A stretch of DNA of 64,000 nt from Chloroflexota bacterium. Lineage in GTDB: Bacteria; Chloroflexota; UBA6077; JACCZL01. Shown piece by piece: positions 5,863 to 49,004 of this stretch (position 1 is its first letter; each line of letters starts with the position of its first letter). Below the pieces are notes generated by a model that did no database searches, had not been told where the DNA came from, and saw nothing but the letters and a program-made list of their open reading frames with translations. A program made the position numbers and the translations under genes. The DNA lies in assembly GCA_020850535.1 (NCBI GenBank), contig JADZEM010000143.1, positions 1 to 64,000 on the forward strand. Reading direction: 5' to 3'.

Positions 5863-7596
5863 CTACGACGAGAACGTCTGGCCGGCCAGGAGCTGGAAGT
5901 GCTCGACAATCGGGCCGAGCGACAGGGCCGGGAAGAAGGTCAAGGCTCTCATGATCAGGATCACGCCGACCAGCAGCCCGACCCAGACGCCGCCCGTTGT
6001 CGGAAATGTCCCGAGGCTCGGCGGCGTCCTGCGCTTGGCGGCGAGCGACCCGGCGATGGCGAGCATCGGCACGATCATCAGGAAGCGCCCGAACAGCATC
6101 GCGAGGCCGCCCGTCGTGTTGTAGAAGACGTTGTTCGCGCCGATGCCGGCGAAGGCCGAGCCGTTGTTCGCCGTGGACGAGGTATACAGGTAGAGGATCT
6201 CGGAGAAGCCGTGCGCGCCGGGGTTGTTGAGCGTCGCGGTGCCCCACTCCCCAACGGACGCCAGCCCCGTGAAGATGAGGATGCTGGCGGCGAGGATCAG
6301 CGAGGCGAGCATCGCCATTTTGACCTCGTAGCTCTCGATCTTCTTGCCGATGTACTCTGGCGTCCGGCCAACCATCAGCCCGGCGATGAAGACGGCCAGA
6401 ATCGCGAACATCAACATCCCGTACAGACCTGCGCCGACGCCGCCGAAGACGGCCTCGCCAAGCTTCATGTTGACCATCGGGACCAGCCCGGCCAGCGGCA
6501 TCAGGCTGTCGTGGAAGGCGTTGACAGCCCCGCACGAGGTGGCCGTGGTGATGACGATCCAGAGCGCCGAGAGGGCGACCCCGAAGCGGACTTCCTTGCC
6601 CTCCATGTTGCCGCCGGCCTGGAGCGCCGATGCCGTCTGGTCAACGCCCAGTGCGCCGATCAGGGGGTTGCCGCGCTGCTCGATCGTGACGGTCACGGCG
6701 AGGCCGACGACCACGATCAGAAAGGACGCGGCCCAGAGCGCCCAGCCCTGGCGGGTGTCCCCGACCATCCGCCCGAACGTGAAGAAGATGGCGGCCGGGA
6801 TGACGATGATCGCGAAGTTGGTGAGGAGATCCGTCAGCGGGCTGGGGTTCTCGTAAGGGTGGCCCGAGTTGACGTTGAAGAAGCCGCCGCCGTTGGTGCC
6901 CAGCTCCTTGATGATCTCCTGGCTGGCGACTGGCCCCCGCGCAATCGTCTGGGTCGCGCCTTCGAGCGTGGTAGCGTCCACGTAGCCGCCGAGCGTCTGG
7001 GGCGTCCCCAGCGCGACGAGAACGATGGCGAACACCACGCTGATCGGCAGCAGGATCCAGAGCACCGAGCGCACGAGGTCGACCCAGAAGTTGCCGATGG
7101 TGCTCGCGCCGCGGCGGGCGATCCCGCGTACCAGCGCGATGGCGACCGCCATGCCGATGGCGGCCGAGGTGAAGTTGTGGACCGCCAGTCCGACCATCTG
7201 GCTGAAGTAGCTCATCGTCGTTTCGCCGACGTAGGACTGCCAGTTGGTGTTGGTCGCGAAGGAGACGGCGGTGTTGAACGCCAGATCGGGCGTGGCGCCG
7301 GACAGTTCTTGCGGGTTGTAGGGCAGCAGTCCCTGCGTCCGCAGGATGGCGTAGGTCAGCACGAGGCCGAACAGGTTGAACAGGAGCATGGCGGCGGTGT
7401 AGCCGCGCCAGCTCTGCTCCTGCTGCCAATCGACGCCGCTCAGGCGGTAGATGGCCCGCTCGATGGGCGTCAGGATCGGGTCGAGCCAGGTCTGCTCGCC
7501 CTGGTACACCCGCGCCATGTAGCCGCCGAGCGGCTTTGTCAGTAGGAGCAGGAGCAGAAAGAAGACGGCAATCTGCACGATTCCGGGGAGTGTCAT
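5863..7596 (-). CDS. kdpA: potassium-transporting ATPase subunit A
   Basis: KdpA is the K+-binding, channel-like subunit of KdpFABC. The product is 577 residues and highly hydrophobic. The selectivity-filter segments of the four repeats are visible: [39 protein letters not shown] and [14 protein letters not shown] conserved [13 protein letters not shown] follows the first helix. I chose the ATG at 7596 (MTLPGIVQ) over the GTG codon immediately before it. The gene follows kdpF after 84 bp and is separated from kdpB by 109 bp of G/C-rich repeat-like sequence. Confidence 0.97.
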
Positions 7597-8032: not shown

Positions 8033-8080
8033 CTAAGCGCTCGCCTAAGGGGCGGACGCGCGCGCTAAGCGTTCGCTAAG
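8033..8080 (-). promoter_or_regulatory. CTAAG-box cluster upstream of the kdp operon
   Basis: Four CTAAG pentamers (CTTAG on the kdp strand) begin at 8033, 8045, 8065 and 8076. The last two are 11 bp apart, one helical turn, within CTAAGCGTTCGCTAAG; the first two are 12 bp apart in CTAAGCGCTCGCCTAAG. Paired direct repeats with 11-bp phasing are typical of OmpR/PhoB-class response-regulator sites. The cluster lies 85-130 bp upstream of the first kdp open reading frame, so it is a candidate KdpE-type operator. This is inference. Confidence 0.45.
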
Positions 8081-8143
8081 CATTCGGCAGCGGCGGCCGG
8101 TGCTGGGTGGACGGAGCAGCCCGCTGTTGACGTCGGGCACGCG

Positions 8144-8174
8144 TTGCGGCGACCCCGGTTCCGTCCGGTATACT
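8144..8174 (+). promoter_or_regulatory. candidate promoter of tRNA-Pro
   Basis: A TATACT -10 box at 8169-8174 lies 20 bp before the tRNA. A weak TTGCGG -35 box at 8144-8149 gives a 19-bp spacer. Confidence 0.45.
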
Positions 8175-8193
8175 GCTGGAGCCGAACGGCAGA

Positions 8194-8267
8194 CGGGGTG
8201 TAGCGCAGCCTGGTAGCGCGCTTCGTTCGGGACGAAGAGGCCGGAGGTTCAAGTCCTCTCACCCCGA
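8194..8267 (+). tRNA. tRNA-Pro (anticodon CGG)
   Basis: The 74-nt cloverleaf has a CGGGGTG/CACCCCG acceptor stem, a GCGC/GCGC D-stem with the GCCTGGTA loop, an anticodon stem CTTCG/CGAAG around loop TTCGGGA (anticodon CGG, reading CCG codons), and T-stem GGAGG/CCTCT with loop TTCAAGT. The discriminator base is A. CCA is not encoded. A candidate promoter precedes it and an intrinsic terminator follows 7 nt downstream, so it appears to be transcribed alone. Confidence 0.96.
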
Positions 8268-8274
8268 CCTTCTT

Positions 8275-8302
8275 GGGTGCAACAGGATGTTGCACCCTTT
8301 TT
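8275..8302 (+). terminator. intrinsic terminator of tRNA-Pro
   Basis: Hairpin GGGTGCAAC-AGGAT-GTTGCACCC is followed immediately by TTTTT. Confidence 0.92.
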
Positions 8303-8397
8303 CTTCGCCCTGTGTCCATCCCCAACGGACTGCCTTCCCGACAGTGTTCCGAGGGGCGGGTCCACTGCCTACAGCGCCTTGAGGTTGCGAGGCCGAA

Positions 8398-8570
8398 ATG
8401 AGGCAGGCGCTGAACCCGTTGGAAGTCTGGCAAGGATGGAGCCAGGAGGAGGCGAGTCTGCCGCCGGAGCTGGGGGTGTGGCAGCAGTGTGCGCTGGCGC
8501 TGCTCAGCCTGGGGGTGGCGTCGGCGAAGCACTGCAGACTGGCCCGGCTGCACGGGGTGTTGCCTTCGCC
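8398..8570 (+). pseudogene. 5' fragment of a transposase gene
   Basis: An ATG at 8398 opens a reading frame whose first ~57 codons include LPPELGVWQQCALALLSLGV followed by ASAKHCRLARLHGVLP. This pattern (a W-Q-C-L-A-L-SLGV-A-HC-L-R block) resembles the N-terminus of a DDE transposase family that I recall from Chloroflexota insertion sequences. Beyond about 8570 the frame reads low-complexity Pro/Arg sequence antisense to the sulfatase gene, so only the 5' end remains. No inverted termini were located. Family assignment is uncertain. Confidence 0.45.
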
Positions 8571-10039
8571 CGCTCGCGAGCCTCGTTCGGGGCCGGCTCG
8601 AACTGGTCCGGCGCGGGGGTGTAGGGGATCTTCACACCGGCCGCCAGCACGGCCTCCGGGCCGCCGTGTTCCGCGATCCGGGCCTGCTGGCTCGCCTTGG
8701 CGCGGGCGTCGGTGGCGTCTGGGTCACAGATGGCACGAAGCCTTGCCTCGCAGTCAGCACGCGTCTCCGCGAAGCTCGGGTCAGAGGCGAGGTCGTGCGT
8801 CTCGCAACGGTCCGCCTCCATGTCAAACAACTGCGGCGGCATGTCGATGTATCGGATGTATTTGTAGCGGCCGGACCGCAGCATGAAGGCCGCGCTCGGA
8901 GACAAAATCGCGTGGTACTCGCTGAAGCTGATCCGCTCGCAGTCGTCCTGCTGCGCCAGCCGGAAGATGGACTCGCCCGGCAGATCAGCGTCCTGCGGCG
9001 CGAGGTCCGCGCCCACCGCTTCCACGATGCCCGGGAAGCAGTCGACCAGGTTGACGTTTGTGTTCGAGACCTTGCCCTGCGGGATCTCCGGGCCGGCCAC
9101 GATCAACGGGATGCCGACCGATGCCTCGAGCATCGAGGACTTCCACCACATGCCGTGCTCGCCAAGCTGCTCGCCGTGGTCCGTAGTGTAGATGATGCGC
9201 GTGTTCCCAGCTTGCCCTGACGCTTCGAGGGCAGCCAGGATGCGCCCGATGTTGTGGTCCAGGAAGGTGACCATCCCGTAGTACGCCGCGATGGCTCTCC
9301 TGATCGAGGCTTCGTCCACCGGCTCGTCGAGCGCCTGGATCTGACGCTGCCACACTTGGAACGGGTGCTGCGACCATTCGGCCTGCTGCCAATGGACCGG
9401 CATCGGGACCGCATCCGGGGGGTAGAGGTCAAAGAATTCCCGCGGTGCTCGCAGCGGGAAGTGGGGGTAGGTCAACGAGATGAAGACCGCCCACGGCTTT
9501 TCCTGCTGGGCTCCCTCATGCGTCAGGAAGCGGATCCCTTCCTCGGTCGTCGCGCGGTCGTAGCGGGTGTACTCCACCTCGCCCGGACCAGCCTCGAAGA
9601 TCTGCTTACGGCTGTGCGGCCGGACCGGCATCTGGTCGCGCAGGCAGCCGTAGATGTCCCCGACGCCCTCCAGAACGTGCATCGGCAGCCGCTGATCGTC
9701 GAAGCCGCTCGGGTCGTCCGCCTTGCGGTAGTGCAGCTTCCCGATGGTGGTGACCTTGTGGCCCTGCTCGGAGAGGCGCTTCCCCCAGGAGTCGGCCTCG
9801 GTCCCGATATAGGGCGTGCCGTTGTCCCAGGACCCGATGGTGTGGGCATAACGGCCCGTCGCGAGCGCGGCCCGCGACGGCACACAGATCGGGGTGGGGC
9901 AGTAGGCGTTGCGGAAGCGCGTGCCGCGTGCAGCCAGGGCGTCCAGGTTCGGCGTCTTGACGACGGGGTTGCCGTAGCAGCCCAGGACGCGCGGGCTGTG
10001 CTGGTCCGAGTTGATGAACAGGACGTTCGTTGGCCGCAT
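8504..10039 (-). CDS. sulfatase (formylglycine type)
   Basis: The 511-residue product belongs to the alkaline-phosphatase-like sulfatase family. Visible elements are the N-terminal metal-site strand NVLFINSDQHSPRVLGCYG, the C-x-P-S-R motif (CVPSRAALATGR, Cys52) that is converted to formylglycine, IGKLHY, and TTDHGEQLGEHG with the Asp/His metal ligands. There is no signal peptide, so it is probably cytoplasmic and acts on an imported sulfate ester; choline-sulfatase-like substrates are possible but unproven. It starts four bases after the ROK regulator gene, so the two are co-transcribed. The last ~20 residues (PRAAGPVCSASPTPPPG) are read antisense through a transposase remnant, so the natural C-terminus has probably been replaced. 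Confidence 0.9.
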   Translation of the reverse strand: MRPTNVLFINSDQHSPRVLGCYGNPVVKTPNLDALAARGTRFRNAYCPTPICVPSRAALATGRYAHTIGSWDNGTPYIGTEADSWGKRLSEQGHKVTTIGKLHYRKADDPSGFDDQRLPMHVLEGVGDIYGCLRDQMPVRPHSRKQIFEAGPGEVEYTRYDRATTEEGIRFLTHEGAQQEKPWAVFISLTYPHFPLRAPREFFDLYPPDAVPMPVHWQQAEWSQHPFQVWQRQIQALDEPVDEASIRRAIAAYYGMVTFLDHNIGRILAALEASGQAGNTRIIYTTDHGEQLGEHGMWWKSSMLEASVGIPLIVAGPEIPQGKVSNTNVNLVDCFPGIVEAVGADLAPQDADLPGESIFRLAQQDDCERISFSEYHAILSPSAAFMLRSGRYKYIRYIDMPPQLFDMEADRCETHDLASDPSFAETRADCEARLRAICDPDATDARAKASQQARIAEHGGPEAVLAAGVKIPYTPAPDQFEPAPNEARERAKATPRAAGPVCSASPTPPPG

Positions 10040-38761: not shown

Positions 38762-41371
38762 GTGGCTCAGATCGTCTCGTCGGCGCGGCTGTGGCCGACC
38801 CGGTCCGAGGAGGCCGGCCGTCGAGCGGCTGGCCCGCTGGATCGGAACCCCGGCTCCCGCGGTTTCTATCTCTCGGTCTCATTCGTCTTCGCAATTCTGA
38901 CCTACCTGGCCGTCCAGCTCATCCAGTGGGGCGGGGCGATGGTGAACGCCTCGGCCACCGCCGCCGATCCGATGGTCGGGAGCCTGCTGGTGCACCTGAC
39001 CAGCCTGGTGGCCTGGGTCGGCGCGTGCATGCTGGCCGGGCTGGTGGCTCACTACTACCTCACACGGCTGGGCACCTCGCTGAGCGCCGAGCACCGGCGC
39101 GGCGAGAAGCTGGCGCTGGTCTCCGACGTGAGCGGCGCCATGACGGGGCCATACCCGCCCGCCGAGATCTCGACGAAGTTCCTCCAGCGCATTCGCAAGG
39201 TGATGCCCGACACGACGAGCGCCGCCGTCCTGCTCTACGACGAGACGGCGGAGTCCCTGTCCGGTCTGGCCGCCGATGGCCCGCATGCGAGCGACCTGGA
39301 AGGCCTCTTCCTCTACCTGTCCCTGCTGCCCGAGCCGATCCGCACCCCGCTGATGAAGAACCGCCCCGTCGTGATCTACGACGTGCGGGTGGACAACGCG
39401 ACGACCGGCGGCGCGGACACCTGGGGATCGTTCATCCGCCATCTGCCGGCCCTGCGGCAGGCCCGCACCTTCGTGGTGCTGCCGCTGCTCTCCCGCAACC
39501 GGCTGGTGGGCGCGCTGCTGCTGCGCGACGACCGCCCGAGCGCCGTCGACGTCGAGATGCTGCAGTTGCTGACCGTCCTGACCCACTTCCTGGCGGGCGC
39601 GCTGCACAACGCCTTCTCGGTCTCCGAGGCCGAGGCTCGCGCCGACCGCGCCGCGGTCATCAACCGGGTGGTCCGCCACGCGCACGCCGGCTTCGACCAC
39701 GAAGTGATGATGAAGAACGTGCTGGACGAGATGGGCGCAGCGATGCACATCTCGTCGGCGCTGGTGCAGCTGGGGAAGGCAGCGGACGATCTCCGCATCG
39801 CCTATGAGTGGACCGGCAACGGCGAGACCCCGGTCGGCATCGGTAGCCAGATCGAGCTGCCGATCGCGCGGTTGGCCGTCCGCGACGGTTGCACGGTGGC
39901 CGTGACCGACATGCGTACGGATGGCCGCCTGCAGCACGACGACCTCGGCCAGCCCGAAGACCACCTGCGAACCGGGGCGGTGGCCGTGCTCGCCACGCCG
40001 ATCAGCCTCGGCGGGCAACTGGTGGGCGTGCTGCTGCTCCAGATGCACGACGTTCCGCGCGCCTGGACCGGCGACGACATCCGACTGGCGGAGGGCGTCG
40101 CCCGTGAGCTGCGGGTGGCCCTGGAGACGGCCCGCCTGCTCGAATCCCGTGAGCGCGAGTCCAACCGCCTGATGGCGCTGCACCGCGCCTCGACGGAGCT
40201 TGCCACCCACACCGACACCCACACCGTTATCCAGTCGATCCTGCGCAACGCCACGACCCTCCTGGGCGGCGGCAGCGGCTCCTTCTTCCGCTGGGATCCG
40301 GAGGCCGGGCTGCTCCGGCGGGTCCAGACCTGGCAGACCCCGGACATCGACACCTCCTCCGAAGTGCGCCCTGGTGAAGGGCTGGCCGGGCTGGCGTTCG
40401 CCGAGGCGAAGCCGGTCATCATCAACGACTACCAGGCGTCCGACCTGGCGCGCCGGCGCGGCCGGGACCGCGGCCTGCGGGCTGGCCTGGGCGTCCCGCT
40501 GATCCCGAGCGGCAAGCCGCTGGGCGTGCTGCTGATCTCCTCCTACGACGACTCGACCCAGTTCAGCGAGGACGACGCCCGCCTGCTCGACCTCTTCGGG
40601 GATCAGGCGGCGGCGGCCCTGATGACCGCCGAGGCCTTCGAGGAGCAGGGCAAGGCCGTGGCCGAGCTGGAGCGGGTCAGCAAGGTCAAGAGCGAGTTCG
40701 TGGCCATCGTCTCGCACGAGTTCCGGACCCCGCTGACGGGCATCCAGGGCTTCAGCGAGATGATGCGCGATGAAGACCTGACCGTGGACGAGATGAAGGA
40801 GTACGCCGCCGACATCAACAAGGATGCGCGGCGGCTGAACCGCCTCGTCAACGAGATGCTGGACCTGAGCCGCATGGAGTCTGGCCGCATCCAGTTGAGC
40901 CTGGAGTCCATCGACCTCAACGCCATCATCTCGGACGTGGCGAGCTTGATGCAGCCCACCGCCCCGAAGCACACGTTCACCCTGCGGCTCGACAAGTCGC
41001 TCGCGAGCCTCGTGGCCGACCGCGACAAGATCACCCAGGTGGTGACCAACCTCGCCAATAACGCCGTCAAGTACGCCCCGGACGGCGGGGAGATCGTGCT
41101 GATGACGCGCGCCGAGGGCAACCTGGCGCACCTGATGGTGGTGGACAACGGCATCGGCATGCACAAGGACATGCTGGAGCATGTCTTCGAGCCGTACTCG
41201 CGCGTCGAGCACGGGGCCGCCCGGGTGATCTCGGGGACGGGCCTGGGCCTGCCCATCGCCCGGCAGATCGTCAAGCTGCACGGGGGCAGGATCTGGGCGG
41301 ACAGCATCGAGGGCAAGGGCTCGACCTTCCACTGCCTGATTCCGATCGGCGCAGCTGCCCGCGCTGCCTGA
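38762..41371 (+). CDS. membrane sensor histidine kinase with GAF domains
   Basis: The 869-residue product from GTG 38762 has AGGAGG five bases upstream; an earlier in-frame ATG lacks this. Two N-terminal helices (YLSVSFVFAILTYLAVQLIQ and LTSLVAWVGACMLAGLVAHY) precede about three GAF-like segments (roughly 130-290, 300-460 and 470-630). The kinase core has the H-box VAIVSHEFRTPLTGIQGF (His652), N-box NLANNAVKYAPDGG, VVDNGIGMHKDM and GTGLGLPIARQIVKLHGG. It is followed closely by a REC-ATPase gene that is a plausible partner. It is divergent from the efflux pair. Confidence 0.95.
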   Translation: MAQIVSSARLWPTRSEEAGRRAAGPLDRNPGSRGFYLSVSFVFAILTYLAVQLIQWGGAMVNASATAADPMVGSLLVHLTSLVAWVGACMLAGLVAHYYLTRLGTSLSAEHRRGEKLALVSDVSGAMTGPYPPAEISTKFLQRIRKVMPDTTSAAVLLYDETAESLSGLAADGPHASDLEGLFLYLSLLPEPIRTPLMKNRPVVIYDVRVDNATTGGADTWGSFIRHLPALRQARTFVVLPLLSRNRLVGALLLRDDRPSAVDVEMLQLLTVLTHFLAGALHNAFSVSEAEARADRAAVINRVVRHAHAGFDHEVMMKNVLDEMGAAMHISSALVQLGKAADDLRIAYEWTGNGETPVGIGSQIELPIARLAVRDGCTVAVTDMRTDGRLQHDDLGQPEDHLRTGAVAVLATPISLGGQLVGVLLLQMHDVPRAWTGDDIRLAEGVARELRVALETARLLESRERESNRLMALHRASTELATHTDTHTVIQSILRNATTLLGGGSGSFFRWDPEAGLLRRVQTWQTPDIDTSSEVRPGEGLAGLAFAEAKPVIINDYQASDLARRRGRDRGLRAGLGVPLIPSGKPLGVLLISSYDDSTQFSEDDARLLDLFGDQAAAALMTAEAFEEQGKAVAELERVSKVKSEFVAIVSHEFRTPLTGIQGFSEMMRDEDLTVDEMKEYAADINKDARRLNRLVNEMLDLSRMESGRIQLSLESIDLNAIISDVASLMQPTAPKHTFTLRLDKSLASLVADRDKITQVVTNLANNAVKYAPDGGEIVLMTRAEGNLAHLMVVDNGIGMHKDMLEHVFEPYSRVEHGAARVISGTGLGLPIARQIVKLHGGRIWADSIEGKGSTFHCLIPIGAAARAA

Positions 41372-41432
41372 GCACAGACCCGGGATGAGCCTGGGGCCCA
41401 GCGCGGCGGCGCCGCGACAAGGAGCATCGAGA

Positions 41433-42587
41433 ATGGACCAGCAGAAGATCCTCTTCGTGGACGACGAGGAGCAGATTCGTCGCCTGCTCAGCTCGTTCCT
41501 GACGCGGCGCGGCTACCTCGTCCAGACGGCGGTGGACGGCCAGGAGGCGCTCAACTTCCTGGAGCGCGAGCGGCCCGACCTCGTCATCACCGACGTCAAC
41601 ATGCCGAACGTGGACGGCGTCGAGCTGACTCGCCGGCTGCGGGCCGACCCTCGCCACGAGAGCCTGCCGATCATCATGCTCTCGGCCAAAGTGCAGACCG
41701 ACGAGATCCTGGCCGGCTACGCCGAGGGCGCGGACGAGTACGTTCCGAAGCCGATTGAGATGCGGATCCTGGCCGCCAAGGTCGAGTCGCTGCTGCGGCG
41801 CGTCTCACACGCTGCCGTGCCGGCTGCTGTCGAGACGGTCGCTGCGCCGGAGCCGCCGGCCAAGCAGGTGGTGGTGTTCATGCACGGCAAGGGCGGCGTC
41901 GGGACGACCACCCTGGCCGTCAACATGGCGGTGGCCCTGGCGACGGAGGCGGGCAAGTCGGTCTCGCTGGTGGATCTCGACCTCGCCTACGGCAACGCCG
42001 CCCGCATGCTCGGGCTGCACACCGAGCGCACCCTGGCCGATCTCGCGGCCGACGATCACATCAACCTCGACGCGCTCCGCGAGATCACGCTGGAGCATCA
42101 GAGCGGCGTCAAGGTGGTGGTGGGCTGCGACCAGCCGGAGCACTCCGCGACGGTCGGCGGGCTGCTGGTCCGCTGGACCATCGAACAGGAGCTTGAGCGC
42201 TCCGATGTCGTGATCGTGGACACGGCGTCCTGGCTCTCCGAAGCGACGCTGGCGGCGCTGCCGGAGGCCACCACGGTCTGCGTGGTGACCGCCCCACGAC
42301 TGGTGGCGTTGGAGGCGACGGCCAACTGCCTCGCCATGCTCAGGCGGCTGGGCGTCAAGCCCGAGCAGACCCGGCTGATGCTGAACAACACGTCGTCACG
42401 CGGTCTCAAGTCGGATGTGGTGGCGCGGCGGCTGGAGCGGCCGGTTGACCTGAGCGTGCCGTATCTGGCCTCGTTCGGGGATGCCGCGCGGACGCTCAAG
42501 CCGCTGGACAAGGGCCAGCCAGACGAGGTCGGCGCGATTGTCGCGCGCGACCTCGCGCACCGGGTGATCAGCTTCCCGGCGGCGTAA
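41433..42587 (+). CDS. response regulator fused to a CpaE/MinD-like ATPase
   Basis: The 384-residue product has a REC domain (KILFVDDEEQ; phosphoacceptor Asp54 in VITDVNMPN; Lys in YVPKP) followed by a ParA/MinD-type ATPase (HGKGGVGTTTLAVNMAVAL, VSLVDLDLAYGNAA, VIVDTAS). The ATPase loop keeps the signature Lys of KGG but has Thr where the P-loop Lys would be, as in CpaE/TadZ proteins that localise the pilus assembly. No tad/cpa pilus genes are in the window. AAGGAG is upstream of the ATG. Likely partner of the preceding kinase. Confidence 0.93.
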   Translation: MDQQKILFVDDEEQIRRLLSSFLTRRGYLVQTAVDGQEALNFLERERPDLVITDVNMPNVDGVELTRRLRADPRHESLPIIMLSAKVQTDEILAGYAEGADEYVPKPIEMRILAAKVESLLRRVSHAAVPAAVETVAAPEPPAKQVVVFMHGKGGVGTTTLAVNMAVALATEAGKSVSLVDLDLAYGNAARMLGLHTERTLADLAADDHINLDALREITLEHQSGVKVVVGCDQPEHSATVGGLLVRWTIEQELERSDVVIVDTASWLSEATLAALPEATTVCVVTAPRLVALEATANCLAMLRRLGVKPEQTRLMLNNTSSRGLKSDVVARRLERPVDLSVPYLASFGDAARTLKPLDKGQPDEVGAIVARDLAHRVISFPAA

Positions 42588-44422: not shown

Positions 44423-44736
44423 ATGATCGCTTCCCTCACCACCGCGCGGAACTGGCCCATCGCTCGTAGCTGTCTTCGCCATCGTGACCGGCACCATCGG
44501 GGCCATGTTCGGGCCGATGCTGCTGACCCGATTCGGCGTCACCGATCCGCTGGCGCGCGGCATCGCGCTCGGCACGACCTCCCACGGCCAGGGGACGGCC
44601 GCCGCGCTCCTGGAGGGCGAGTCCGCTGGGGCGATGTCCAGCCTGTCGATGGCGGCTGTCGCCGTCTTCACCGCCGCGATTGCACCGTTGTACATCTCGG
44701 CTGTACATCTCGGCGCTGCTGGGCCTGATCGCCTAA
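44423..44736 (+). pseudogene. LrgB-family remnant, frameshifted
   Basis: The C-terminal part of an LrgB (CidB-like) membrane protein: VAVFAIVTGTIGAMFGPMLL, DPLARGIALGTTSHGQGTAA, EGESAGAMSSLSMAAVAVFT, IAPLYIS. An ATG with GGAGAGG upstream at 44423 is in another frame, and the first ~130 residues are missing. A 13-bp perfect tandem duplication (44689-44701 and 44702-44714) breaks the end of the frame; removing one copy restores a natural ending ALLGLIA and the TAA at 44734. So it has at least one deletion and two frame changes. Confidence 0.75.
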
Positions 44737-44790
44737 GCCAGGGCTACGACGAGGCCTCCAACGCCTCGGCCTTGCTGAGACAAAGACAAG

Positions 44791-44980: not shown

Positions 44981-45364
44981 GTGCAGGACGAGGGACTTCC
45001 GTACGGCGAGCAGCCGCCAGGACCGCAAACGCTCTCCTGGCCCGCCGACGCCGTCACCGACGCCGTCGCCCCAGCGCCACCCGTGACATGCGACGTGGTG
45101 GCTGCTGCGCGCCTGGATGGCGTGCGCCTTGCCGCGCGCGAGATCGCCCACCTGCTCAACAACGACCTGGCCGTCTCGGTCGGGGCGCTCGATCTGCTCC
45201 GTCACTGCGAGGATCTGCCGCCGGCCCTCCACGACCTTGTCGAGCGGGCGCTCGCGGGTATCAGCGCCGCGACCGCCCACGTCGAACGGCTGCAGCGCGT
45301 CCAGCGGGTCGTGACGCACGAGACGCCGGCCGGACCGTCGCTCGACCTTGACCACTCGGGCTAA
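44981..45364 (+). CDS. stand-alone H-box (DHp-like) protein, paralogue 1
   Basis: The 127-residue product from GTG 44981 has GAGGAG eight bases upstream; an in-frame ATG at 44912 is an alternative. After a Pro/Asp-rich N-terminus, residues ~41-120 resemble the dimerisation and phosphotransfer helices of histidine kinases: LAAREIAHLLNNDLAV with His57 in an H-LNN context, then a second helix (AHVERLQRVQRVVT). No ATPase domain follows. The end reads ETPAGPSLDLDHSG. It shares its 16-residue H-box block exactly with the next gene. Function unknown. Confidence 0.7.
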   Translation: MQDEGLPYGEQPPGPQTLSWPADAVTDAVAPAPPVTCDVVAAARLDGVRLAAREIAHLLNNDLAVSVGALDLLRHCEDLPPALHDLVERALAGISAATAHVERLQRVQRVVTHETPAGPSLDLDHSG

Positions 45365-45585
45365 GACCACTCGAGCCCGGGTCACTCAGGCCAGCTTCCG
45401 GGGAGCAGTCCTCACGCCACATGGTGTGCTGCGCTCTTCCGTCGCCCTCACAGCGTGGTCACGAGGCGCGGCTTCGCTTGATTGTGGCGTCGTTGTAGCG
45501 CCATCGTGTCGGGGCAGCCGGTAGCATGACCCCGTCAGATGCAGTCTCGGTGGTGCATGCGGCTGCGTCAGGGTGGAGGACTCCG

Positions 45586-46005
45586 GTGGCACTTCCACGC
45601 AAAGCCCCATCGGCACGCCACAGCTTCGACCTGCCGGGTCGGACTGGCGTCATCGTGCAGCATCCGGCGGTCGAGGGCCTGCTGGATTCGCAGATGGTGC
45701 CGGCGGGCGCGGTCGGCGTGCTGGAGAGCCGCGCCCGCGACGAGGCGCGGCTTGAGGGCGTGCAACTGGCCGCGCGCGAGATCGCCCACCTGCTGAACAA
45801 CGATCTGGCCGTTGCGGTGGGCCTCGTGGAGTTGCTCCAGGAGCGCGACGATCTCCCCGCCCACCTGCGGGACATGCTTTTCGGGGCGGCCCAGAGCCTG
45901 GACTCCGCCGCGCGTCACGTCGCGCAGCTCCAGGGCATCAAGCGGGTGATCGTCAAGGAGACGCCGGCCGGTCAGAGCCTCGACCTGGAGCGCTCGCGCC
46001 GCTAG
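45586..46005 (+). CDS. stand-alone H-box (DHp-like) protein, paralogue 2
   Basis: The 139-residue product from GTG 45586 has GGAGGA five bases upstream; an in-frame ATG at 45526 is less likely. The core LEGVQLAAREIAHLLNNDLAV with His68 is followed by a second helix (SAARHVAQLQGIKRVIV) and the end ETPAGQSLDLERSRR. It lacks any ATPase domain. It is about 220 bp after paralogue 1 and upstream of a small-protein gene and a complete two-component system. A phosphotransfer or scaffolding role is possible. Confidence 0.72.
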   Translation: MALPRKAPSARHSFDLPGRTGVIVQHPAVEGLLDSQMVPAGAVGVLESRARDEARLEGVQLAAREIAHLLNNDLAVAVGLVELLQERDDLPAHLRDMLFGAAQSLDSAARHVAQLQGIKRVIVKETPAGQSLDLERSRR

Positions 46006-46237: not shown

Positions 46238-46474
46238 ATGGCTCCGGCAACGACGATCGCGCCCGCGTCCCACACCGCTCCGACGGGCGGCACTGGTCAG
46301 ACCGGCGATTTCGTGCAGGATGTGGCCCTCGCAGCCGAGCGCATCGACCGCAAGCTTCGGTTGTCGCTCTCCCCGCGGCAGTACGCGATGGTGCAGGATC
46401 TGGTGCTGGCGACGCGCATCATGACCATTGCGCGGGATGCCGACGACGAGCTGGCAGCGCCCTCGGCCGCCTGA
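46238..46474 (+). CDS. small protein, IDR-L-QY-VQ-LV family
   Basis: The 78-residue product from ATG 46238 (GAGGTGACGACC upstream) has an Ala/Thr/Pro-rich start and a helical C-terminal half with AERIDRKLRLSLSPRQY followed by AMVQDLVLATRIM. The same pattern (IDRRLWLELPSEQYRLVQEL) is in the protein at 53934, so they are probable paralogues. Family unknown. It sits between the second H-box protein gene and the OmpR-type regulator gene. Confidence 0.65.
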   Translation: MAPATTIAPASHTAPTGGTGQTGDFVQDVALAAERIDRKLRLSLSPRQYAMVQDLVLATRIMTIARDADDELAAPSAA

Positions 46475-46764
46475 GCGCCGCCTCCGTGCAGGCGGCCCCG
46501 AGGCTGGCGGCGCGCCGAGTCGGAGCCGTTTCGTCGCGCCGCATCTTCAGCAAATCTCAAGCTTTCTCAGCTTGAAGCCTCAGCCACGCGCGGCATCATC
46601 GAAGGAGACGGCGCGCAGCCCGCGCCAGGATCCCGACGATGCCCCTCACGATACGGCTCCCGTGGCGCACCGGAGCGCCCCAGCGTCCGGCCGCATCGCC
46701 CACACCAGCCTCGCCACCTGCTCCATCGGCTGTCCCGACACGGTATCCTGATGTTGAGGACGCG

Positions 46765-47469
46765 ATGGTCACAGGATCAACCGGCGCGAATGGGACACCC
46801 CGTATCCTCGTCGTCGACGACGAGGATGCCATCCTCGACTTTGTCGAGCTGGGCCTGAAGTACGAAGGCTTCGAGGTCGAGCTGGCCCGCGACGGGCTGG
46901 CCGCGATCTCGTCGTTCAGCGCGCGCCGGCCTGACCTGATCCTGCTCGATCTGAACCTGCCCGGCCTGGACGGTCTCGACGTCTGCCGGCGTATCCGCCA
47001 GGCCAGCGACGTGCCGATCATCATGCTGACGGCGCGCGGCGACGTGGATGAGCGTGTCGAGGGGCTGGAAGCGGGCGCTGATGACTACCTCCCCAAGCCG
47101 TTCAAGTTCAAGGAGCTGTTGGCCCGCGTGCGGGCCGTCCTGCGGCGGCGCACCAGCTCCGTCGAGCGGGTGCTGCGCTTCGGGGCGCTCGAGTTGAACC
47201 GCGACACGCGCGAGGTCTTCCTCGACGGTCGCCCCGTCCACCTGACCCCCCGCGAGCTGGATCTGCTCGAAGTGTTCATGCTCCACCCGCGCCAGGTGAT
47301 GACGCGCGACGTGCTGCTGGACCGGGTCTGGGGCACCGACTACCTGGGCGACGGCAACCTGATCGAGGTTCATGTGAGCGCCCTGCGCGACAAGCTCAGC
47401 GATACCGATCGGAAGCTGATCCGCACGGTGCGGGGAGTCGGATACGCGCTCTCGGGCGGCCCGAGCTAG
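46765..47469 (+). CDS. OmpR-family response regulator
   Basis: The 234-residue product has a REC domain (ILVVDDEDAILDF; phosphoacceptor Asp62 in LILLDLNLPG; switch Thr in IMLTARGD; Lys in YLPKPF) and a winged-helix output domain (LTPRELDLLEVFMLHPRQVM, VHVSALRDKL, IRTVRGVGYAL). GAGGACGCG precedes the ATG at 46765. The kinase gene starts two bases after its stop codon, so they are one transcription unit. Confidence 0.96.
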   Translation: MVTGSTGANGTPRILVVDDEDAILDFVELGLKYEGFEVELARDGLAAISSFSARRPDLILLDLNLPGLDGLDVCRRIRQASDVPIIMLTARGDVDERVEGLEAGADDYLPKPFKFKELLARVRAVLRRRTSSVERVLRFGALELNRDTREVFLDGRPVHLTPRELDLLEVFMLHPRQVMTRDVLLDRVWGTDYLGDGNLIEVHVSALRDKLSDTDRKLIRTVRGVGYALSGGPS

Positions 47470-47471
47470 CC

Positions 47472-49004
47472 GTGGTTTTCCTGGCGAGCCTCAACCCCCG
47501 TAACTGGCCGATCCGCTGGCAGTTGACGATGCTCAACGTCGGCGTGCACGCCGTCACGCTGGTGACGTTGAGCATCGTGTTCCTGGCCCAGATGGACGGC
47601 GCGCTGGTGGGCATCGCCGCCGACAACCTGCGCGACAAGGCGCGGGGTGTCTTTGAGGATCGCCGCCCGCCACCGGATGAGGTCGGGCTGCGCCCGCCGC
47701 CGCCCCCGTTCAGCCTGCCGCGTATCGCCGCGCTGGTGGTCCGTCGTCTGAGCGGGCCGGACAGCGGCGCGCTCATCTTCGACCTGGACGGCAACCTCGT
47801 CGAGCAGACCCGCGTCGAAGAGGATCAGGAGCCGTGGCCGGCCCCGCCGCCGGCGATGCTGACGCAGGATGCCGGGCGCCCCGGCGCTGAGCGCACCATG
47901 ATCGTGCGACAGGAGTCTCGGCGCGTGCTGCTGCTGATCGTGCCGATGCCGAGCCCTGAGGACGGCGTGGTCGGGACCGTCGTGCTGGCGCGCTCGCTGG
48001 AGCTGGTCGACGCCGTGCAGGGGCGCCTGCTCTGGGCGCTGGTCGCCGTGGTGGTGATCGCCGTCGTCGTCGGCGGCACGCTCGGGCTGCGGGCGACCCG
48101 CGAGGCGTTGCGCCCGCTGGACCGTGTCATCCACGTGGCCCGGGCCATCGAGGCCGGCCAACTGGACGAGCGGCTGCGCCCGACCAAGCACGACGAGATC
48201 GGTGCGCTGGGCATCGCGCTGGACACGATGCTGGACCGGCTGGCCGGGATGGTCGCCTCGCAGCGGCAGTTCGTGGCGGACGCCGCCCACGAGCTGCGAA
48301 CGCCGCTGACGGCCCTCGGCGGGATGGTCGAGATGCTCCAGATGGGGGCCGACCGGGGCGATCCGAACACGGTCCGCCGGATGCTCGACACGATGAGCCG
48401 GGAGATCGACCGGCTCAGCCGGCTGGTGGCCGACTTGTTGACGCTCTCGCGGCTGGACGCCGAGCAGCCGCTGCACCCTGGCCCGGTCGACCTGCCGGCC
48501 CTGCTCAGCGAGGTGGCGATCCAGACGGACGTGTTGGCAAAGGGCCAGGAGATCGCCGTCGAGGTCGAGCGGCCGGCCACGGTCATCGCCGACGCCGACC
48601 GCCTCAAGCAGGTGCTGCTCAACCTGACCGCCAATGCGATCCGCTTCACGTCGGCTGGCGGGCAGATCGTCCTGGGCCTCACCACCGACGACGGCAAGGC
48701 GATCGTGACCGTCTCGGACACCGGCTCGGGCATCGCACCCGACCTGCTGCCTCGGGTTATGGACCGCTTCGTTCGGGGTGACGCCTCGCGGGCACGCTCG
48801 ACGGGCGGCTCGGGGTTGGGGCTGGCCATCGCCAGCGCCATCGTCGAGGCGCACGGCGGGACCATCGAGATCGCCAGCACGCTCGGCCAGGGCACGACGG
48901 TGACCATCTCGCTGCCTCGTACTGAGGGATCGTCCGCGCAGGCTCGGCCATCCTCCGACCTGCCCGCCGCCGTCGAGCGCCGCCAGCCCGTCGCCCCGAG
49001 CTAG
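47472..49004 (+). CDS. sensor histidine kinase, HAMP type
   Basis: The 510-residue product from GTG 47472 has a first helix (LTMLNVGVHAVTLVTLSIVF), a ~130-residue extracytoplasmic region rich in Pro, a second helix (LLWALVAVVVIAVVVGGTLG), HAMP (REALRPLDRVIHVARAIEAG), H-box FVADAAHELRTPLTAL (His273), N-box LLNLTANAIRFT, SDTGSGIAPDLLP and GGSGLGLAIASAIVEAHGG. It is the cognate kinase of the preceding regulator. Confidence 0.95.
   Translation: MVFLASLNPRNWPIRWQLTMLNVGVHAVTLVTLSIVFLAQMDGALVGIAADNLRDKARGVFEDRRPPPDEVGLRPPPPPFSLPRIAALVVRRLSGPDSGALIFDLDGNLVEQTRVEEDQEPWPAPPPAMLTQDAGRPGAERTMIVRQESRRVLLLIVPMPSPEDGVVGTVVLARSLELVDAVQGRLLWALVAVVVIAVVVGGTLGLRATREALRPLDRVIHVARAIEAGQLDERLRPTKHDEIGALGIALDTMLDRLAGMVASQRQFVADAAHELRTPLTALGGMVEMLQMGADRGDPNTVRRMLDTMSREIDRLSRLVADLLTLSRLDAEQPLHPGPVDLPALLSEVAIQTDVLAKGQEIAVEVERPATVIADADRLKQVLLNLTANAIRFTSAGGQIVLGLTTDDGKAIVTVSDTGSGIAPDLLPRVMDRFVRGDASRARSTGGSGLGLAIASAIVEAHGGTIEIASTLGQGTTVTISLPRTEGSSAQARPSSDLPAAVERRQPVAPS

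Follow-up and report, generated by a model that had tools for sequence, protein, structure and literature searches.

Analysis of the window, i.e. the whole stretch of 64,000 nucleotides studied here, reveals two tandem genes on the forward strand at positions 44981–46005. The gene of protein 1 (44981–45364, 127 residues) starts with GTG and is preceded by a Shine-Dalgarno-like GAGGAG, 8 nt upstream on direct reading; that of protein 2 (45586–46005, 139 residues) also starts with GTG, 6 nt behind a GGAGG, and a longer frame is open from the ATG at 45526. Both frames score as coding with a simple in-house gene caller, and both gene assignments draw on the structure models described below as well. 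Protein 1 consists of an N-terminus of about 36 residues, unstructured in its model, followed by a DHp-like hairpin module without ATPase domain (45107–45358; family profile 128.5 bits, E = 6.4e-37) which contains the putative phosphoacceptor His57 (codon 45149–45151) and the conserved C-terminal tail ETPAGPSLDL (45320–45349). Protein 2 combines an N-terminus for which no homologue was found in the class with the same kind of ATPase-less module (45742–45996; 125.2 bits, E = 7.0e-36), the putative phosphoacceptor His68 (codon 45787–45789) and the tail ETPAGQSLDL (45958–45987). In the alignment, the residue following the histidine (His+1) is Leu and the one at His+4 is Asn in both proteins. The numbering of the two histidines in the first-pass annotation, made from the sequence, agrees with the GTG starts at 44981 and 45586; the ETPAG-SLDL ending that it gave for both proteins is present, followed by a few residues, and the chains stop one or two residues past the module.

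The two proteins are 57% identical (48/84 residues, BLASTP, E = 6e-30), which rules out a chance likeness. The 16-residue H-box LAAREIAHLLNNDLAV, reported from the outset as common to both, is indeed identical in proteins 1 and 2, and the four of its 16 codons that differ do so synonymously. Overall, dN is 0.37 and dS 0.64 (NG86), a modest sign of constraint.

Upstream of the pair lie a three-GAF histidine kinase and then a protein combining a receiver (REC) with a ParA-type ATPase (41385–42587), and downstream follow a 78-residue protein, an OmpR-type regulator (46639–47469) and a HAMP histidine kinase. This corresponds to the setting proposed earlier, a GAF kinase/REC-ATPase block on one side and an OmpR-type system on the other, which had left unmentioned two features separating the upstream block from the pair: a minus-strand gene for an FMN-dependent dehydrogenase and a probable remnant of an lrgB gene. 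The latter (44484–44740) adjoins the pair; its product matches the LrgB family PF04172 at positions 142–212 of 214, i.e. over the C-terminal third. The two genes of the pair are separated by 221 bp when counted from the GTG starts, or by 161 bp if protein 2 begins at ATG 45526, and a terminator-like match is found between them, so that their co-transcription is uncertain; nor is it clear that the pair shares an operon with the two-component genes on either side. The contig contains HATPase_c matches at 41018–41347, 48591–48923 and 69891–70223 only, leaving none between 41347 and 48591, which bears out the earlier statement that the two proteins have no ATPase domain.

The first-pass annotation had expected a helical hairpin fold, and the structure models display one. 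The AlphaFold2 model of the protein 2 module, computed as a single chain, comprises two long helices, a short β-hairpin and a terminal helix with a pLDDT of 93.8, and the single-chain model of protein 1 shows the same helical hairpin; in both predictions the histidine is located on helix 1. A Foldseek search against the PDB returned mostly DHp domains at the top ranks, e.g. that of GacS (TMt 0.85), with the RetS–GacS DHp complex among the matches, at weak E-values of about 0.1 as expected for a fold that is no more than a hairpin. A PDB search with a single sequence gave nothing meaningful, while the family profile matched kinases, among them KinB (E = 5.4e-6) and LvrB. Alignment of the family with DHp domains of intact hybrid kinases by hhalign (98.5% probability, E = 1.4e-15) superimposes both the histidine and the LDL tail, so that the tail corresponds to the strand which opens the ATPase (CA) domain of intact kinases, and the window chains end there. 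With the HisKA family PF00512 the window proteins score 14.9 and 21.7 bits, below the Pfam gathering cut-off of 26.9, and a relative (L146) reaches 36.0 bits. NCBIfam yielded no match, Pfam detected neither an N-terminal sensor nor a REC domain in the pair, and no degenerate catalytic domain follows the DHp hairpin in chains of this length. No match of the window proteins to a non-signalling family was found, the profile matches being to kinases and DHp domains. The histidine-containing phosphotransfer (HPt) family PF01627 was considered as well; a search of the source genome at E ≤ 1 did not report the window loci, and an HPt identity was rejected. The window proteins, as modelled, thus have a kinase-type phosphotransfer hairpin with an obvious phosphoacceptor histidine and without the ATPase domain.

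Searching the source genome (7.65 Mb, 227 contigs) with protein 2 identified at least eight members, i.e. the pair and at least six paralogues located elsewhere. In these paralogues the module is C-terminal in REC-GAF, PAS-GAF, REC, GAF or PAS proteins, none of which has an ATPase domain. A family profile built from eight source-genome members found relatives in related genomes: at the level of the class, 18 of 29 genomes match at E ≤ 1e-8, some of the weaker matches being intact kinases, and in a draw of 400 genomes from the phylum at least 18 match at E ≤ 1e-12, with at most 12 candidates scored per genome. Of the latter, 15 (counting the source genome) come from the same class and three from two other families. 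A scan of genome contigs with a five-sequence alignment gave two loci, one relative comes from a Dehalococcoidia MAG listed under Chloroflexota, and a scan of viral sequences found no relative. The family is thus found mainly in one class of Chloroflexota. Among 26 full-length members, Pfam recognizes GAF in 15, HisKA in 13 (E ≤ 0.01), REC in 10, PAS in several and HATPase_c in none, and the chains extend 0–21 residues past the module. In the larger set of 54 members a few have a longer extension, of about 40 residues at most, which leaves no room for an ATPase domain. The module mostly forms the C-terminal part of a REC, GAF or PAS protein, so that the stand-alone form is an exception within the family; this description, given earlier to the two proteins, holds for the pair, which represents minimal members of an ATPase-less family. 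Other short members occur in related genomes (L060, L146). A further relative of the pair (L050, 5801–6280) has two hydrophobic segments before the module, as read by eye, and is probably membrane-anchored.

In a tree of 54 ATPase-less modules and the DHp domains of 16 intact kinases the two groups lie on opposite sides of one branch (support 100/97), and the same split is recovered from the DHp columns with the tail left out (92/91). As all 54 modules fall on one side of a single split, they constitute a coherent family and not scattered broken kinases. The intact kinases in the tree are those retrieved with the family profile, so that the tree demonstrates one coherent family without proving a single loss of the ATPase domain. 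That the window pair consists of broken kinases was rejected in view of this split, the conserved tail and the absence of any HATPase remnant nearby. The full tree pairs protein 1 with protein 2 (99/83), a placement that is not starred without the tail and that would be as expected after a tandem duplication.

Comparison of the same 54 members and 16 intact kinases shows that conservation within the module is highest at the phosphoacceptor histidine (51/54). A leucine at His+6 is present in 51 members, and His+4 is N, Q or T in 50 (N in 46). On the other hand, an acidic residue at His+1 is found in all 16 intact kinases versus 28 of the ATPase-less members. In HisKA proteins kinase but not phosphatase activity depends on the acid at His+1, and the reverse holds for the Thr/Asn at His+4 (PMC3510030). 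This residue pattern is what would be expected of a module that faces receivers and no longer an ATPase domain. Wherever a REC fused to the module has a complete frame, its phosphoacceptor Asp and its Lys are retained. In three variants the hairpin is kept and the histidine is replaced, by Asp in L131 (5063–5668) and L132 (4354–4998) and by Glu in L125 (4759–5379).

The genes directly adjoining family members are enriched in two-component genes (16/99 versus 16/240 at a distance of three or more genes, p = 0.0075) and in hybrid kinases (6/99 versus 2/240, p = 0.009). Domain calls in these counts used profiles built from the window proteins, and the p-values are optimistic because sister species contribute loci that do not count as independent, L053 and L055 being apparent orthologues. 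The clearest gene order, hybrid kinase(-REC)/REC-GAF-module/REC-wHTH, is that of these two loci, from two genomes of one genus; in L049 and L146 a hybrid kinase lies within about 25 bp of the member.

We regard a receiver-facing phosphotransfer module, comparable to Spo0B and ChpT but without a remnant of the catalytic domain, as the best reading of these data and give it somewhat less than an even chance. The two proteins are tandem paralogues, each with a predicted DHp-type hairpin that is related to the one of hybrid kinases and cut at the first strand/helix of the CA domain. The modules would most likely dimerise into a four-helix bundle, whose conserved histidine would receive the phosphoryl group of one REC (in a hybrid kinase, single-domain or, in other members, fused on the same chain) and then hand it to another REC, as in Spo0B and ChpT. 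For the window pair we infer dimerisation, phosphorylation, the direction of transfer and the partners. This reading is favoured by the conservation of the histidine and of N/Q/T at His+4 combined with the relaxation of the kinase acid at His+1, replaced by Leu in the pair, and from the enrichment of two-component and hybrid-kinase genes alongside members and the integrity of the fused RECs. Among the roles listed in the first-pass annotation, that of phosphorelay intermediate remains our best guess. Several observations count against a relay: a two-component gene occurs within two genes in 16 of the 54 members only, and loci from relatives do not count as independent; the histidine is missing from three members; and no hybrid kinase adjoins the window pair. 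Moreover, ordinary HPt domains (PF01627) are present in these genomes, six in the source genome and some in 20 of the 29 genomes of the class, so that a substitute for them is not strictly needed; the idea that the family replaces a missing HPt was dropped for the same reason.

A purely phosphatase role fits the motif data equally well. The module would then dephosphorylate its cognate regulators without forwarding the phosphate, or act as a phosphate sink, under the control of the attached GAF, PAS or REC domain if there is one. We rank this as the main rival, rather unlikely if far from implausible. It agrees with the retention of the His+4 residue in the face of a relaxed His+1 and with the phosphatase role already suggested for archaeal proteins of similar build (PMC5847659), and an EnvZ report bears a title announcing phosphatase activity without the kinase catalytic domain (cited in PMC8971529); yet in a later study, in mammalian cells, no such activity was apparent for the DHp domain of EnvZ by itself (PMC8971529), the histidine is more conserved than the His+4 residue, and the order hybrid kinase/REC-module/REC-wHTH points to a relay more than to a sink.

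Pairing with full kinases has a small probability in our view. Mixed dimers, in which the module is phosphorylated by the ATPase domain of its partner or blocks it as in RetS–GacS, are conceivable given that a DHp fold can pair with another DHp, that the RetS–GacS complex is among the structural matches and that 95 HATPase_c matches in the source genome represent many possible partners. However, the acid required for phosphorylation is Leu in both window proteins, which makes pairing or inhibition less likely, and is missing in about half of the family, and the tree parts the modules from the intact kinases sampled; no evidence favours the decoy or kinase inhibitor that had also been put forward. 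It is similarly improbable that the module is a mere dimerisation domain of REC, GAF and PAS proteins and the stand-alone pair a decaying remnant of such a protein. The three members without histidine, the N-terminus of protein 2 without detectable homologue in the class and the lrgB remnant next door would fit this explanation, but conservation is strongest at the histidine, the two window genes are open with Shine-Dalgarno-like sites and purely synonymous changes in the core, and other short members exist in related genomes, including the one with two membrane-like segments.

Degenerate kinases working as phosphotransferases are established in the cases of Spo0B, ChpT and PhyT (PMC5898713). 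The module proposed here as a phosphotransfer element shares with these proteins a kinase-derived DHp-type hairpin and a phosphoacceptor histidine, and ATPase activity is not expected in either case. Spo0B and ChpT keep a degenerate catalytic domain. So does PhyT (PMC5898713), whereas the window chains end at the first strand of this domain. The likeness to DHp domains of HDxNN-type hybrid kinases extends to the hairpin, the H-x-x-N-N box and the following LDL strand, all of which align, but these intact kinases have the acid at His+1, HATPase_c and usually a C-terminal REC, and the 16 sampled separate in the tree. With HPt domains, a different family, the module would share the proposed role, a REC-to-REC phosphotransfer step.

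A close precedent is archaeal. Regulators described as 'HisKA, no HATPase', with REC-PAS/GAF-HisKA architectures as in AF_1472, were suggested to have phosphotransfer or phosphatase roles, had no experimental study, and appear in P2CS as 'possible incomplete histidine kinase' (PMC5847659). The present family, too, has a HisKA-like domain with a conserved histidine, no HATPase and N-terminal REC, PAS or GAF domains. It differs from the archaeal proteins, which we compare by their description, in being bacterial and in forming a coherent sequence family with an LDLxRS tail and minimal, sensor-less members. The suggestion made earlier that the pair belongs to an undescribed family thus stands in part: the general kind is known in archaea (PMC5847659), and as far as the literature was searched no bacterial description was found, one elsewhere being possible, so that the bacterial family, its tail and its minimal members are apparently undescribed. 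It is possible, if somewhat doubtful, that they represent a new bacterial phosphotransfer class, namely a DHp with only the first ATPase strand and its own C-terminal tail, portable on REC, GAF and PAS proteins, also free-standing, and present in at least eight copies per genome in some Chloroflexota. Proteins that resemble kinases but lack the ATPase domain are mostly either labelled histidine kinases or passed over. Should the module transfer phosphate, gene annotation would be overlooking relay branches in these genomes. As the family is compact and has a conserved histidine, a fixed tail and natural stand-alone versions (about 130 residues), the effect of a bare DHp on receivers is directly testable.

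Two minor observations concern other genes. The 78-residue protein downstream of the pair (46238–46471), without Pfam match and without relative elsewhere in the class, looks helical by eye and has one weak paralogue in the source genome (C166). At L012, two further members of the family (6462–7256 and 8060–9613) are arranged divergently in the same genome, less than 3 kb apart.
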